Part shown: positions 4,933 to 22,596 of the stretch, piece by piece | Numbering within the stretch: the first letter of the stretch is position 1 | Layout: each line of letters begins with the position of its first letter | Origin: Verrucomicrobiota bacterium | Lineage (GTDB): Bacteria; Verrucomicrobiota; Verrucomicrobiia; Opitutales; Opitutaceae | NCBI GenBank assembly: GCA_030601755.1 | Contig: JAUWBF010000029.1 | Coordinates: 1-38,334 of the forward strand | Direction: 5' to 3' | DNA length: 38,334 nt | Translations under genes and position numbers: made by a program | The notes under the pieces: generated by a model | Database searches by the model: none | What the model saw: only the letters and a program-made list of their open reading frames with translations | Told to the model about the DNA's origin: nothing

Positions 4933-5466
4933 ATGGCCGAAGATAAGTCCGCTCCCAAAAAAGAAAAAGCGATCAAGGACGTCGAGTCCGTCGCCGCCGC
5001 TCCCGCCGCTGAAAAGCCGGTTGAGCTGGTCGGTGGCGTCGCCCGCCAGCCCACCGCCGAAGAGCTCCTCAAGGAAGAGCTCGGCGCGATCAAGATCCGC
5101 AAGGCGAAGGGTTCCAAGAACATCACCTCCGGCGTCGCCAACGTGCTCGCCTCGTTCAACAACACCATCGTCTCCATCACCGACGCCAAGGGCGCCGTGA
5201 TCTCCTGGTCCAGCGCCGGCAAGTGCAACTTCCGCGGTTCCCGCAAGTCCACCGCCTACGCCGCCCAGGTCGTCGCCCAGGACGCCGCCCGCACCGCCAT
5301 GTCGCACGGCCTCAAGGACGTCGTCGTGAAGGTCTCCGGTCCCGGCCTCGGCCGCGACAGCGCCATCCGCGCCTTCCAGGCCATCGGCCTCGAGATCACC
5401 TCGATCGTCGACGTCACCCCGGTGCCGCACAACGGCTGCCGTCCCAAGAAGCGCCGCCGCTGCTAA
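4933..5466 (+). CDS. rpsK: 30S ribosomal protein S11 with N-terminal extension
   Basis: This is a 177-residue S11. The conserved core starts near residue 54 and includes [12 protein letters not shown] (73-84), [13 protein letters not shown] and the C-terminal [17 protein letters not shown]. Compared with the usual ~129 residues there are about 48 extra N-terminal residues, rich in Ala, Lys and Glu, with a likely helix around EELLKEEL. S11 forms part of the platform near the mRNA exit and contacts the Shine-Dalgarno helix. The alternative would be a later start, but no ATG or GTG lies close to the core, and ATG 4933 follows rpsM by 20 bases. No Shine-Dalgarno is visible. Confidence 0.95.
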
Positions 5467-5516
5467 GCGCCCGCCGCACCACCCACGGAATCAACCCAAT
5501 TTAAGGTCAACCCACC

Positions 5517-6128
5517 ATGGCTCGTTACACCGGTCCCACCACCCGCCTCAGCCGCCGCTTCAACCAGCCGCTGTTCGGCGCCACCAAGGCCTTCGAAAAG
5601 CGTCCCTATCCTCCCGGCCAGCACGGCCCCAAACTCCGTCGCAAGCTCTCGGAATACGCCGTCGGCCTCAACGAAAAGCAGAAGCTCCGCTACGTCTACG
5701 GTCTGCTCGAGCGCCAGTTCCGCCGCACCTTCGAGGCCGCCAAGCGCGAGCGCGGCGTCACGGGTGAGCGCTTCCTGCAGCTCCTCGAGACCCGCCTCGA
5801 CAGCGTCGTCTACCTCCTCGGCTTCGCCAAGAGCCGCTCCGCCGCCCGCCAGCTGGTCAACCACGGCCACGTGCGCGTCAACGGCCACAAGGTCGACATC
5901 GCCAGCTACGTCGTCCAGGTCGGCGACGAGCTCGAGATCAAGAACCAGGCCAGCTCCCGCCAGCTCGCCACCCGCAACCTCGAGGAGAACCGCGCCCGCA
6001 ACGTCCCGGGCTGGCTCACCCTCAACGCCGAGCAGTTCAAGGCCGTCGTCAACCGTCTGCCCAACCGCGACGAGATGGCCCCCGACATCAACGAGCAGCT
6101 CATCGTCGAGTTCTACTCGCGCTTCTGA
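5517..6128 (+). CDS. rpsD: 30S ribosomal protein S4
   Basis: The 203-residue S4 has MARYTGPTTRLSRRF at the N-terminus and YPPGQHGPKLRRKLSEYA near residues 31-48. The S4 RNA-binding domain spans about 94-155 (RLDSVVYLLGFAKSRSAARQLVNHGHVRVNG), and the protein ends in LIVEFYSRF. The four N-terminal zinc cysteines of the C+ form are absent, so it is the zinc-free form. S4 nucleates assembly of the 16S 5' domain and in enterobacteria represses its own operon. A long hairpin follows the stop, before rpoA. Confidence 0.97.
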   Translation: MARYTGPTTRLSRRFNQPLFGATKAFEKRPYPPGQHGPKLRRKLSEYAVGLNEKQKLRYVYGLLERQFRRTFEAAKRERGVTGERFLQLLETRLDSVVYLLGFAKSRSAARQLVNHGHVRVNGHKVDIASYVVQVGDELEIKNQASSRQLATRNLEENRARNVPGWLTLNAEQFKAVVNRLPNRDEMAPDINEQLIVEFYSRF

Positions 6129-6151
6129 TCCGGCCCTTTGCCGGTGGTTTC

Positions 6152-6212
6152 GCCGTTCGGTCCCCGTTTGCAAACGCAGACGGGGCTTGCCGAACGGCTA
6201 AACTTATTTTTT
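6152..6212 (+). terminator. Long hairpin with T-run between rpsD and rpoA
   Basis: GCCGTTCGG (6152-6160) pairs with CCGAACGGC (6190-6198). An inner CCCCGT (6162-6167) pairs with ACGGGG (6180-6185). TAAACTTATTTTTT follows. The shape is that of an intrinsic terminator. Because rpoA follows in the same direction, it is probably an attenuator or an RNA-processing site. Confidence 0.65.
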
Positions 6213-6238
6213 CTCCTTAACTCTTTACACCTATCGCC

Positions 6239-7240
6239 ATGCCCAAACGCCTCGGAAAGTTCGAGCTTCCCAACAAACTCACCAAGGTCGAGGACGGCGC
6301 CACGCCGACCTACTCCAAGTTCATCGCCGAGCCCTTCGAGGCCGGTTACGGCCACACCATCGGCAACTCCCTGCGCCGCGTGCTGCTCAGCTCCATCGAG
6401 GGCTCGGCCATCTCCTCGATCAAGATCGAGGGCGTCAGCCACGAGTTCCAGAGCATCGACGGTGTCGTCGAGGACGTCACCGACATCGTGCTCAACCTGA
6501 AGAAGATCCTCATCATCTCCCAGAAGCGCGAGCCCGTCACCCTCCAGATCAAGGTGAACCGCGATGGCGCCGTCACCGCCGCCGACATTCAGGCCGACGC
6601 CAACATCACCATCGTCAACCCCGAGCAGGTTATCTGCACCCTCGACAAGGTCCGCCTCTTCAACGCCGAGGTCGAGATCAAGACCGGTCGCGGTTACTAT
6701 CCCGGCGAGCAGAACAAGAAGGAAGACCAGGCCATCGGCGTCATCCCGATCGACTCCCTGTTCTCCCCGGTGAAGCTCGTGAAGTATTCGGTCGAGAACA
6801 CCCGCGTGGGTCAGATCACCGACTACGACAAGCTCATCCTTGAGATCTGGACCGACGGTCGCGTGACTCCGGACGACGCCCTCAAGCAGTCCGCCTCCAT
6901 CCTCAAGCACCACCTCGACGTGTTCGACCGCGTCAGCGAGGAGGCCTACGAGTTCGACAACGTGCAGTCCGAGGTCAGCGAGGAGCAGAACAAGCTCCGC
7001 AAGCTCCTCAACATGTCGGTCAACGAGATCGAGCTCTCGGTCCGCGCCGCCAACTGCCTCAACAACGCGAACATCACCACGGTCGGCGAACTCGCCATGA
7101 AGACCGAGCAGGAGATGCTCAAGTATCGCAACTTCGGCAAGAAGTCGCTCAACGAAATCAAGGACAAGCTGGAGCAGCTCGGTCTCTCCCTTGGCATGAA
7201 GTTCGACGAGCGTCTCCTCGACGCCAAGAAGGAAGCCTGA
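6239..7240 (+). CDS. rpoA: DNA-directed RNA polymerase subunit alpha
   Basis: The 333-residue product matches the family length. The N-terminal dimerisation domain shows AEPFEAGYGHTIGNSLRRVLLSS (about residues 30-52) and the GVVEDVTDIVLNLK segment. The C-terminal domain, about 255-320, shows the helix-hairpin-helix region with NITTVGELAMKTEQEMLKYRNFGKKSLNEI, which binds UP elements and activators. A flexible linker lies between them. Gene order rpsD-rpoA-rplQ is canonical. Hairpins lie on both sides, so the level of rpoA may be tuned separately from the ribosomal proteins. Confidence 0.98.
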   Translation: MPKRLGKFELPNKLTKVEDGATPTYSKFIAEPFEAGYGHTIGNSLRRVLLSSIEGSAISSIKIEGVSHEFQSIDGVVEDVTDIVLNLKKILIISQKREPVTLQIKVNRDGAVTAADIQADANITIVNPEQVICTLDKVRLFNAEVEIKTGRGYYPGEQNKKEDQAIGVIPIDSLFSPVKLVKYSVENTRVGQITDYDKLILEIWTDGRVTPDDALKQSASILKHHLDVFDRVSEEAYEFDNVQSEVSEEQNKLRKLLNMSVNEIELSVRAANCLNNANITTVGELAMKTEQEMLKYRNFGKKSLNEIKDKLEQLGLSLGMKFDERLLDAKKEA

Positions 7241-19092: not shown

Positions 19093-20385
19093 ATGACCAC
19101 AGTGCGCCGGATGCTCAAACGCATTTTCGCCATCGGCGCCGGCATCGGCGTCGGCCTGCTCTGCTCCGTCGGGGCCGTGCACCTCGGCGCGCTGTGGGGA
19201 CTCTGGCCGGATCGCGAGCTGGAGCGCTCCACCGCGCAGATCCGCGAGGTCATGCAGCTCGTGCACGATCGCTACGTCGACGCCGACGTGGTGTCCTACG
19301 AGGCGCTCAAGCAGGCCGCGCTCGACGGCATCGCCGCCTCGCTCGACCCGCACACCGGCTACCTCACCGCCGGCGACTTCAAGCTCCTTCAGGAGGAGAT
19401 CGGCAGCGAGTTCGGCGGCATCGGCGTGCAGGTCGAGATGATCGAGGGCCGCCTGACCGTCATCGCGCCCATCCGCGGCACGCCCGGCGACCGCGCCGGC
19501 CTGCTGCGCGGCGACCAGATCGAGAGTATCGACGGCGAGCCCGCGGGCGACGCCGACCTCATGACCTTGATCGCCAAGCTCCGCGGCAAACCGGGCACCA
19601 ACGTCACCATCGGCGTGCGCCGTCCGTCCGAGGACCGCTCCTTCGAACTCACCATCCGCCGCGAGAACATCCACGTCGACAGCGTCAAGGTGGTCGAGCC
19701 CGACGCCGACGGCATCGGCATCATCGAGATCGTTCACTTCGGCGAGGACACCGGCGACGAGTTTCGCCGCGCGCTCGACCGGCTGCGCGCCGCCGGCATG
19801 CGCGCGCTCGTGATCGACCTGCGCGACAACCCCGGCGGTCTGCTTGACGCGGCGGTCGAGGTGGCGGGGCCGTTCTTTCATCGCAACGAACTCATCGTCT
19901 ACACCAAGGGCCGCTCCGCGTCGGACCGCCTTGAGCTGCGCTCCGACGGTCGCGACTCCGTGCCGTCCGACCTGCCGGTCGCCGTGCTGATCAACGGCGG
20001 CAGCGCCAGCGCGTCCGAGATCGTGGCCGGCGCGCTCAAGGACACCGGCCGCGCCGTGCTGGTCGGTGACAAGTCCTTCGGCAAGGGCTCGGTGCAGACG
20101 TTGTATCCGCTCCGTGGTGACGAGGCCCTGCGCCTGACCACCGCCAAATACTTCACGCCCTCCGGCGTGGTCATCCACGGCAAGGGCATCCCGCCTGACA
20201 TCGAGGTGAAGCTCACCCCCGACGAGGAGAAGGCCGTGGCGTTGCAACACCTGCGCGCCGACGTCACCGATCCGGCGGAATTTAAAGAACGCTTCGGCGT
20301 CGACCTCGTGCCCGACCGCCAGCTCGCCGCCGCCAAGGCCGCCGTGCTGGAAAAACTGAAGCCGGCTGTCGTCTCCGCACCGTGA
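19093..20385 (+). CDS. Carboxy-terminal processing protease (S41 family)
   Basis: The 430-residue protein has a short basic N-terminus and one hydrophobic helix (about residues 8-32), acting as signal anchor. Next comes a conserved DPHTGYLTAGDF segment, then a PDZ domain (about 95-185, with GIGVQVEMIEGRLTVI and GDRAGLLRGDQIESI). The S41 catalytic domain carries IDLRDNPGG, the serine motif NGGSASASEIVAGAL and the lysine motif DKSFGKGSVQTL. It degrades or trims proteins in the periplasm. Its stop overlaps the tsaD GTG by four bases (GTGA), implying coupled translation. ATG 19111 is a possible later start. Confidence 0.92.
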   Translation: MTTVRRMLKRIFAIGAGIGVGLLCSVGAVHLGALWGLWPDRELERSTAQIREVMQLVHDRYVDADVVSYEALKQAALDGIAASLDPHTGYLTAGDFKLLQEEIGSEFGGIGVQVEMIEGRLTVIAPIRGTPGDRAGLLRGDQIESIDGEPAGDADLMTLIAKLRGKPGTNVTIGVRRPSEDRSFELTIRRENIHVDSVKVVEPDADGIGIIEIVHFGEDTGDEFRRALDRLRAAGMRALVIDLRDNPGGLLDAAVEVAGPFFHRNELIVYTKGRSASDRLELRSDGRDSVPSDLPVAVLINGGSASASEIVAGALKDTGRAVLVGDKSFGKGSVQTLYPLRGDEALRLTTAKYFTPSGVVIHGKGIPPDIEVKLTPDEEKAVALQHLRADVTDPAEFKERFGVDLVPDRQLAAAKAAVLEKLKPAVVSAP

Positions 20386-21410
20386 TCATTGCCCTCGAAA
20401 GCTCCTGCGACGAGACGGCGCTCGCGCTCTTCGACCCGGCCGTCGGCCTGACCGGCGAGTGGGTTCACAGCCAGATCGCGATCCATGCCGCGCACGGCGG
20501 CGTGGTGCCGGATCTCGCGACGCGCGAGCACCTGCTGACCATCGCGCCGCTCATCGCGACGGCCGGCGAGCACACGCCGTGGTCCGCGGTCACGCGCGTC
20601 GCCGTCACCCATGGACCGGGCCTGGCCGGTTGCCTCGCCATCGGCACCGCCGCCGCCAAGTCGCTCGCGCTCGCGCTTGGCGTGCCGCTGGTCGGCGTCA
20701 ACCACCTGCGCGGACACGTCTATTCACCCTTCATCTCCGCTCACCGTGCCGACCCGGCCCGGTTTGAGGCGGCTCTGGACGCGTGGCTGCCGCACCTCGC
20801 GCTGGTCGTGTCGGGCGGCAACACCCTGCTGGCCCGCGTCGACACCGATCGTCGCATCACGGTGTTGTCCTCGACGCGCGACGACGCGGCCGGCGAGGCG
20901 CTCGACAAGGGCGCCAAGCTGCTCGCGCTCGGTTACCCGGGCGGTCCGTTGATCGAGCGCGAGGCGCGCGGGGGCGACGCGACGGCGTTCGATTTTCCGC
21001 GCGGCATCGGGCGTCGCGACGAACTCGATTTCAGTTTTTCGGGCCTTAAGACCAGCCTGCGCTACCAGCTTGAGAAGATGACTCCCGACGAGATCGTCGC
21101 CCGCCGCGCCGATCTGTGCGCGTCCTACCAGCAGGCGGTCATCGACGCGCTCGTGCGCAAGGCCGGTGCCGCGCTGCGGCTGGACCGTTACCGCAGCCTC
21201 GGCCTGTCGGGCGGCGTGGCCAACAACCAGTCGCTGCGCGGTGCGTTGGGCGCGCTGGCGAAAAAACACCGCCTGCCGTTGCTCGCCGCCGAGCCCCGCC
21301 ACACCGGCGACAACGCCGGCATGATCGCCTTCGCCGCTTGGATCGACCCGACGGTCGCGCCCGTCGCGCCCGCCGACCTGATGATCGAGCCCGGCCTGGA
21401 GTTGGCCTGA
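20382..21410 (+). CDS. tsaD: tRNA N6-adenosine threonylcarbamoyltransferase
   Basis: The 342-residue product is the catalytic subunit that makes t6A37 in ANN-decoding tRNAs together with TsaB, TsaE and TsaC. It starts IIALESSCDETALALFD, the family N-terminus, from a GTG codon. It shows GGVVPDLATREHL, THGPGLAGCLAIG, the metal-binding HLRGH (about residues 107-111), VVSGGNTLL, GEALDKGAKLLALGYPGGP, LSGGVANNQSLR and the final TGDNAGMIAFAA with the metal aspartate. It is coupled to the upstream protease gene. This pairing has no known functional reason. Confidence 0.97.
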   Translation: MIIALESSCDETALALFDPAVGLTGEWVHSQIAIHAAHGGVVPDLATREHLLTIAPLIATAGEHTPWSAVTRVAVTHGPGLAGCLAIGTAAAKSLALALGVPLVGVNHLRGHVYSPFISAHRADPARFEAALDAWLPHLALVVSGGNTLLARVDTDRRITVLSSTRDDAAGEALDKGAKLLALGYPGGPLIEREARGGDATAFDFPRGIGRRDELDFSFSGLKTSLRYQLEKMTPDEIVARRADLCASYQQAVIDALVRKAGAALRLDRYRSLGLSGGVANNQSLRGALGALAKKHRLPLLAAEPRHTGDNAGMIAFAAWIDPTVAPVAPADLMIEPGLELA

Positions 21411-21423
21411 CGACCCAGGGCAT

Positions 21424-21537
21424 TTTCAATCAAGGTGGCTGTTTTGGGGTGGAGCGGCTTGTCCCCAAGACGCTCGTTTGACGTGATGAACGCATCTCGA
21501 ACGCGTTGAGGACAACGCGTTCCACCTTTCAATCAAG
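21424..21537. repeat. Mobile-like intergenic element with inverted hairpin units and flanking direct repeats
   Basis: TTTCAATCAAG occurs at 21424-21434 and again at 21527-21537, flanking 92 bases. Inside are AAGGTGG and CCACCTT ends. Two inverted, diverged units of the form GGTGGAxCGxxTTGTCC lie within (about 21449-21476 and 21498-21525). Each unit folds on itself, and their stems differ by paired substitutions. It lies between the convergent tsaD and type II secretion-like genes. Confidence 0.65.
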
Positions 21538-21562: not shown

Positions 21563-22537
21563 TCAGCCGCCGTCGATCAGCTTCAACATGCCGCCGATGT
21601 ATCCGGCGTAGAATGACACGACGATGAAGCCGACCATCACGGCCACGGCCATGAACAGCAGGCTGGGGTAGAGGAGCGACGCGACCTTGAGCAGGTTGTC
21701 GGCGCGTTCCTGGTGCACCTCCGCCAGGCGTAGCAGCGTGCGGTCGAGCGCGCCGGTCGCCTCGCCGGTTTGGTAGAGCGCGACGAAGTCGTGCGGGAAC
21801 ACGCGGTGCGTCTCCAAGTGCGCGCCGGGCGATTCGCGCGCCTCGATTTTTTGCACGATGTCCGCGGCGGCGCGGCTGATGCGCGGCGAGCCGGAGATGT
21901 GGCCCGCGCCTTCCCAGGCCGCGCCGATGGGCGCGCCCGCCTCGAGCAGGTTGCCCAGCGCGAAGGCGAAGTCGGCCAGCGCTTGGTTGCGCCGGTAACC
22001 ACCGATGGCCGGCAGCAGTCCGAGCAGCCAGAGCGCCGGCGGGAAACGCAGCTTGATCGCCACGCCGAGCAACAGTCCGCCGATCCACACCGGTCCGAGG
22101 ATCATCGCGAGGCCGAGGCCGAAGCGCAGAGGGTCCCACACGATGCCCTTTTCCCAGTCGATCAGCCGGAAAAACGCGAAGACCAGCGCGCCGAAGTGCA
22201 GCACGCCCACCGGATACAGGCAGGCCATCAGCACGCGCGTGCGCAGCTTGGCGAGTTGTTCGTGCCGCTTGGAAAGGGATTGCAGCACCACCGGCAGGCG
22301 TCCGGTCTGCGACGCCGCGATGAGGAACAACCGGTCGTTGGCCGGCAGCCAGTCGCCGGCCGCGTCGAGCACGTGGGGCAACGAATGGCCCTGCTCGATC
22401 AACGCGGCGAGCCGTCGTCGCTCGTCGCGCGGGATGGCCGAGGGGGCCGCCAGCGCCTGGTGAAACGTGAGGCCGGCGCCGAGCTGCTGGGCGAATTGCT
22501 GGCAGACGTTGGCGAGCTGGCGATGCGAGAGGGGCAC
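21563..22537 (-). CDS. Type II secretion system F-family (GspF/PilC-like) membrane protein
   Basis: The 324-residue protein has two T2SSF domains: one near the N-terminus (CQQFAQQLGAGLTFHQALAAPS, then SLPHVL and FLIAASQTGRLPVVL) and one in the second half (ALADFAFALGNLLEAGAPIGAAW, then FVALYQTGEATGALDRTLLRLAEVHQ). Membrane helices follow each domain, with the last at the C-terminus (LLFMAVAVMVGFIVVSFYAGYIGG). Such proteins form the inner-membrane platform of type II secretion or type IV pili. No ATPase or pilin gene is nearby. GTG 22537 is chosen because homology begins there; GTG 22585 would add 16 residues. Confidence 0.8.
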   Translation of the reverse strand: MPLSHRQLANVCQQFAQQLGAGLTFHQALAAPSAIPRDERRRLAALIEQGHSLPHVLDAAGDWLPANDRLFLIAASQTGRLPVVLQSLSKRHEQLAKLRTRVLMACLYPVGVLHFGALVFAFFRLIDWEKGIVWDPLRFGLGLAMILGPVWIGGLLLGVAIKLRFPPALWLLGLLPAIGGYRRNQALADFAFALGNLLEAGAPIGAAWEGAGHISGSPRISRAAADIVQKIEARESPGAHLETHRVFPHDFVALYQTGEATGALDRTLLRLAEVHQERADNLLKVASLLYPSLLFMAVAVMVGFIVVSFYAGYIGGMLKLIDGG

Positions 22538-22596
22538 GGGCGAAAGCCGAGCGCAGGCTTGCCCCCGAGGCGAGCGCGAACCCACGCTGCGCGCCG

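Follow-up and report, generated by a model that had tools for sequence, protein, structure and literature searches.

What is the pair of inverted hairpins found between two convergent genes at positions 21424-21537 of the window, the 38,334-nucleotide stretch of Verrucomicrobiota DNA that we analyzed, and what does the direct repeat on either side of it record? These positions are contained in a 152-bp gap between tsaD, on the forward strand, and a gspF/pilC-like gene on the reverse strand (Table 1). The two inverted hairpin units described in the original prediction are there, exact on their two strands and both folding. Each consists of GGTG followed by a hairpin, with GGTGGAGCGGCTTGTCC at 21448-21464 (+) and GGTGGAACGCGTTGTCC at 21526-21510 (-).

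Table 1. Coordinates of the doublet, its parts and its neighbors in the window
Feature	Position	Strand	Description
tsaD	20382..21410	+	Upstream neighbor; TIGR03723 above cut-off
Probable decayed left outer arm	21422..21447		Common to sister copies; holds left TTTCAATCAAG
REP doublet (REPIN)	21448..21526		79 bp; unit A and inverted unit B separated by a 21-nt spacer, heads facing outward
REP unit A	21448..21476	+	GTGG head, loop TCCC; one G.A mismatch (G21457, A21470) in the stem
Spacer	21477..21497		21 nt in the window copy, sequence variable among copies
REP unit B	21498..21526	-	GTGG head, perfect 10-bp stem, loop TCCT
Right flank	21527..21537		Alike in sister copies C116a and C6; equals right TTTCAATCAAG
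gspF/pilC-like secretion membrane protein gene	21563..22585	-	Convergent neighbor; TIGR02120 E 2.4e-24, below TIGR02120 cut-off

Folded as single-stranded DNA, unit B reaches -12.6 kcal/mol and unit A, whose stem is made of 5 + 4 bp around its single mismatch, -9.7 kcal/mol; for each unit, none of 200 shuffles was as stable. The structural definition of a REP is a GTAG or GTGG located 0-2 nt 5' of a 7-20 nt stem with a loop of 2-5 nt (PMC6006769). Unit B has exactly this build (GTGG, 0 nt, a 9-10 bp stem and a 4-nt loop), and so does unit A, except that the one mismatch leaves its stem not fully paired. The 14-base unit pattern alone, at up to one mismatch, is not rare in the window, since 11 of 100 shuffles reach the three sites found there. 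Searches of the window returned no Rfam match at the gathering score, no tRNA and no repeat at a minimum length of 12 bases. Three weak Rfam matches to the 21424-21537 stretch at E≤1 (two miRNA precursors and a viral UTR pseudoknot) were taken as chance.

The doublet belongs to a dispersed family. When the stretch was searched against its own genome, 31 matches were obtained at E≤10, 21 of which were below 1e-5, a count that includes the window's own match and takes the doublet C61 as two. The unit pattern has 36 exact sites in this genome, while at up to two mismatches it yields mostly noise (217 sites vs. 169 for a reversed control). We read 20 places, and in 17 of them the repeated unit is an intact inverted doublet with its spacer, running from GGTGG to CCACC over 65-82 bp; the other three (C84, C116b, and C139) were dropped as degenerate or cut. 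This is a low copy number for a REP family, REPs usually exceeding 100 per genome (PMC2817692). The spacer measures 21-24 nt in 16 of the 17 doublets and 7 nt in C18b. Unit B is almost constant among copies and unit A is variable; the family also includes a second type of stem, AACCGGTTG..CAACCGGTT. Beyond this genome, 10 of 37 relatives have matches to the stretch, and a scan of named-species genomes gave at least 118 matching stretches. Among the 80 matches listed, 79 bear titles of Verrucomicrobia lineages, mainly Opitutus-type names or simply Verrucomicrobia, and one is titled as a planctomycete, which suggests a host of Opitutaceae type for the window. A separate dispersed palindrome, GACGCCGGTTGAAAACCGGCGCTCC, is found near REP units (L080 and L081, with variants in L083 and L087).

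As judged by a rough ORF call, many copies lie in gaps, and two lie inside coding frames. The frame that holds the C121 doublet (L013:951-1031) has a UvrA interaction domain and gains 27 codons and no stop from the insert. The C18b doublet (L017:1501-1565, 65 bp), likewise read through, separates the two carboxyltransferase domains in the frame of a biotin-dependent enzyme. In relatives, the linkers at these two sites are short or different, too variable for the in-gene copies in uvrA and the carboxylase to fix the insertion boundaries.

Is the fold itself maintained? Across the 17 own doublets, Watson-Crick pairing holds at 289 of 306 within-unit pairs, while redealing the 3' arms among copies gave at most 265 (0 of 5,000 as good). 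Unit A alone has 138 of 153 Watson-Crick pairs, with a maximum of 131 in 5,000 redeals, and unit B, over its nine stem columns, 151 of 153. Once the relatives are included (67 rows, 46 distinct, from 11 genomes), 93.5% of the cells pair. On the same 67 rows the covariation score is 0.278, vs. 0.130 when shuffled (0 of 500) and 0.117 or less with slid partners; the covariation counts are inflated by related copies, and much of the signal comes from the difference between A and B. Two other measures were weaker. Both partners have changed in 5 of 9 pairs, which 17 of 500 shuffles match, and 13 further pair types occur, which 55 of 500 match. The units were taken from BLAST matches with a GGTGG head required for inclusion, so that this head is invariant by construction, and those of the relatives come from 26 fetched loci, which are part of their matches. 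Left out were C84, C116b, and C139, unit A of L107, which has no head, and unit A of L099 and L111, which have a shorter loop. At stem pair 5, unit A has G.A in 7 of the 17 own doublets, and so do units of G001, G015, G016, and G022; in G017 this position is paired. The covariation among genome copies that the original prediction had proposed to look for is thus present, and together with the stability of the DNA hairpins it bears out the claim that each unit's fold is under selection.

The selected structure could instead be one long hairpin in which units A and B pair with each other. REPINs have been described as forming such a hairpin (PMC3116915), and RNA folding of the doublet prefers it on both strands. 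As DNA, however, either strand gives two main small hairpins, those of the two units, plus a small one in the spacer. Moreover, cross-unit pairing over the nine stem columns amounts to 115 of 153 Watson-Crick pairs plus 17 G-T, which falls short of the within-unit figures for both A and B. We therefore regard the long hairpin as quite unlikely to be what is selected.

The position of the doublet between convergent genes suggests another role, that of a two-way transcription terminator or mRNA 3'-end stabilizer for tsaD and gspF, kept for that purpose. Such roles have been hypothesized for REPs (PMC3733652), and the RNA folds of the two strands are stable (z -2.79 and -3.60, with 3 and 2 of 200 shuffles as good). 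However, no T-run follows the hairpins, and the one terminator-like site that a scan gave is elsewhere (21557-21540). By the rough ORF call, other copies stand in nonconvergent gaps, for example, C116a, C80, and C53, or inside reading frames. Nor are the two genes neighbors in the relatives examined: tsaD is present in 36 of 37, and at the 29 of these loci that were fetched there is no gspF (27 with 1.5 kb of downstream sequence, one with 460 bases, and one with almost none), and hence none that could serve as an empty site for the doublet. That the doublet is kept for this purpose is unlikely, and a terminating or stabilizing role may be a by-effect.

A link to a transposase emerges from relatives. 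In G015, locus L172 consists of unit A, a RAYT-like gene (154 aa), and an inverted unit B, spanning 504 bp head to head, that is, the two ends of the doublet with a gene in between. Matches to its protein occur in 91 of 150 genomes of the family; the genome of the window has one, in C6. We took the 30 RAYT loci nearest to the G015 protein (L191-L220, one per genome, best first), a choice that started from a RAYT whose association with these REPs was known beforehand. Of these, 26 are bracketed by GGTGG hairpins lying no more than 300 bp away, and 28 have such a hairpin on at least one side. At 30 control tsaD loci, the corresponding numbers are 0 and 4, one of the four being the window. A wider set of 30 RAYT loci, collected from seven relatives with the family model, has such hairpins on both sides once (L172 itself) and on any side three times, which ties the GGTGG class to one RAYT clade. 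A looser GT[AG]G head, used with no control, raises these counts to 14 and 18.

Within this clade, the distance between RAYTs follows the distance between REP stems, with a Mantel rho of 0.42 against a maximum of 0.37 in 2,000 permutations (0 of 2,000), for 27 of the 30 loci (L213, L219, and L220 out). The ten nearest RAYTs, L191 itself included, go with the stem class of the window; from 56% downward this class is mixed with others (L204, L206, and L207) and then replaced. These three loci, at 53-56%, have other stems though their RAYTs are as near to that of G015 as some others. We term the proteins RAYT-like since the G015 protein (63.8 bits) and the C6 protein (74 bits) miss the NF047646 cut-off of 80 bits, yet H-x-H, WQ, and Y...N are present in 27 of 27. 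The G015 protein matches no Pfam family at 0.001.

In the genome of the window, no RAYT with the window's REP class was found. Y1_Tnp (PF01797) has six matches there in five genes, four of which are over the cut-off, and by a strict test C6 alone has GGTGG hairpins near such a gene, there as part of an array of another class. At E≤1e-8, only this C6 gene matches the G015 protein; it is 48% identical and flanked by another GGTGG REP. The array around it (L024/G000:C6, ~5377-6643) is made of GGTGGACGCGGACCTCCGGGCCGCGTC and GGTGGATGCGGGCCTCCGGACCGCGTC, in steps of ~91 and 182 bp. The assembly has 152 contigs and 96% completeness, so that absence is not proven: the matching transposase may be gone from this genome or missing only from its assembly, and the copies may be relics. 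In relatives, at L172 and other loci, the linked RAYT is flanked by the REP class of the window's doublet.

As for the direct repeat, TTTCAATCAAG is exact at 21424-21434 and 21527-21537, on both sides of the element, just as was originally noted; two such sites at up to one mismatch were found in none of 100 shuffled windows, although this test was post hoc. The longest string common to the 40-base flanks is 11 in the window and 4 to 8 in the other doublets (n = 17), and the window's 11-mer also exceeds the largest (9) of 272 cross-copy comparisons, which makes plain chance unlikely. The original prediction took the repeat for a target-site duplication or a recombination footprint. The data do not support this, since the repeat is found in only 1 of 17 doublets and its right copy abuts the doublet while its left copy lies 13 bp off. 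Moreover, both copies lie within sequence that aligns with a sister copy. Specifically, the 30-base left flank of the window's doublet aligns with the left flanks of C116a, C6, C112, and C80 (0, 17, 33, and 92 of 2,000 shuffles as good), less so with those of C116b (210) and C140 (238), and for eleven other copies 156 or more shuffles were as good. On the right side, a 16-base flank aligns with those of C116a (14) and C6 (43), and every other copy is at 215 or more. Near both places C116a has 9 of 11 and C6 8 of 11 bases of the 11-mer, a likeness that is weak on its own because two of ten armless copies (C29a and C150) reach 9 and 8. Judging from the sequence, the short repeat around the doublet is probably not an insertion scar; a conversion event or chance perfection possibly lies behind the exact 11-mer.

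The flanks have features of their own. Outer inverted arms surround some doublets (L002, L003, and L006). Among 15 copies tested, the arms are clear in C116a and C6 (0 of 500 shuffles as good for each) and weaker in C80 (6), the armless C61 giving 8; in the window none were found (395 of 500). The arms of C116a and C6 extend beyond the two repeat places. The outer arm alone occurs at four places in the genome, three of them within C116a and C80 (control, 0). The fourth is a lone half arm at G000:C122:7490-7507 (L160, ~1501-1518). Exact repeats abutting the doublet are 4 bases long in C6 and C80, 2 in C112, 1 in two copies, and absent from twelve (n = 17).

These observations bear on a DNA-transposon miniature element (MITE) that would have duplicated TTTCAATCAAG as an 11-bp target site. 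The outer arms, the abutting 4-base repeats of C6 and C80, and an exact repeat longer than in any cross-copy comparison speak for it. However, many copies of a MITE should have direct repeats immediately next to both ends, whereas 15 of the 17 doublets have at most 2 bases, and the window none. In addition, the 11-mer is private to one doublet and away from its left boundary, its two places align with C116a, the arms of C116a and C6 continue past them, and the window has no arms. A MITE is thus very unlikely. The abutting 4-base repeats may record the entry of the doublet into the middle of an older palindrome. Along these lines, we tentatively propose, while considering it doubtful, that C116a, C6, C80, and, in decayed form, C112, C116b, and the window are REPINs inside a second, unrelated palindromic element (arms AGAGC..TTAAATAAAACTGTAGCC, with TTTA and TTTG abutting the doublet in C6 and C80, respectively), the two having multiplied together, and that the A/B difference (a G.A mismatch in unit A in five genera, that of the window included) reflects specialized ends for one RAYT. 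If so, one short element would have two routes of spread.

Taken together, the window most probably (about 90%) harbors a non-autonomous mobile element, a REP doublet or REPIN, which on sequence grounds would correspond to the ends of a RAYT/TnpA_REP-type transposon without the transposase gene. This reading rests on the scattering of the family over the genome, on folding and covariation within each unit, on the RAYT-like gene of G015 with its A and B ends, and on the joint variation of RAYT and stem. It is helped by the acceptance of GTGG-headed REPs as REPs (PMC6006769, PMC3733652, PMC2817692). Against it weigh the lack of an own-genome RAYT with this REP class, the wider set with its 1 of 30, the other stems at L204, L206, and L207, the 63.8 of 80 bits and missing Pfam family of the G015 protein, and the low copy number. 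How the window element moves can be proposed from its family and from published TnpA_REP work. The two GTGG-headed hairpins would be the two ends of a REP/tyrosine-transposase (RAYT, TnpA_REP) transposon; the transposase would bind each hairpin in single-stranded form; the GTGG head would guide the cut, with CC or CA expected instead of CT; and the cut strand would be joined elsewhere, probably without target duplication.

By itself the single locus is ordinary. What matters is that a GTGG-headed REP class belongs to one RAYT clade across many genera of a bacterial family, that RAYT and REP stem vary together within that clade, and that natural pairs of ends differing by one mismatch make end recognition by TnpA_REP testable.

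The doublet of the window is a REPIN, a member of a familiar kind. REPINs are inverted REP doublets that form hairpins and are tied to RAYTs (Bertels and Rainey 2011, PMC3116915), and the present elements share with them two inverted REPs, a variable spacer, dispersal, and the tie to a RAYT. In contrast to Pseudomonas fluorescens SBW25, with 431 clusters of two REPs (Table 3 of PMC3116915) and presumably in another phylum, there are ~20 doublets here. Unlike the REPINs described there, the two units of one doublet differ, A being often mismatched and B mostly perfect. GTGG-headed REPs have been listed in Pseudomonas and Stenotrophomonas (PMC2817692). In the TnpA_REP systems of E. coli, Stenotrophomonas maltophilia, and Marinomonas, hairpins likewise follow a GTAG-type head, although these heads are GTAG (PMC8266576). 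The head guides the cut, and a GTGG head in the Marinomonas system leads to CA (less efficient) or CC cutting (PMC8266576). E. coli REPs need an unpaired bulge, while a mismatch in the middle of the stem reduces cutting or all but prevents it in S. maltophilia (PMC8266576), so the effect of the unit A mismatch is not predictable. Pseudomonas aeruginosa GTAG-24 is similar in that position five of its stem holds G and A unpaired and its dimers combine differing stems, but it belongs to the GTAG superfamily, has 12-13 bp stems, and comes from another phylum (PMC3733652). There is also a likeness, by description rather than by consensus, to the GTAG-20 and other GTAG repeats of Opitutus terrae, probably of the same bacterial group: this species is rich in REPs, GTGG heads are found in most of its GTAG-20 elements, dimers occur, and REPs lie inside both of its uvrA genes, as does copy C121 in the frame described above (Di Nocera et al. 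2013, PMC3733652).
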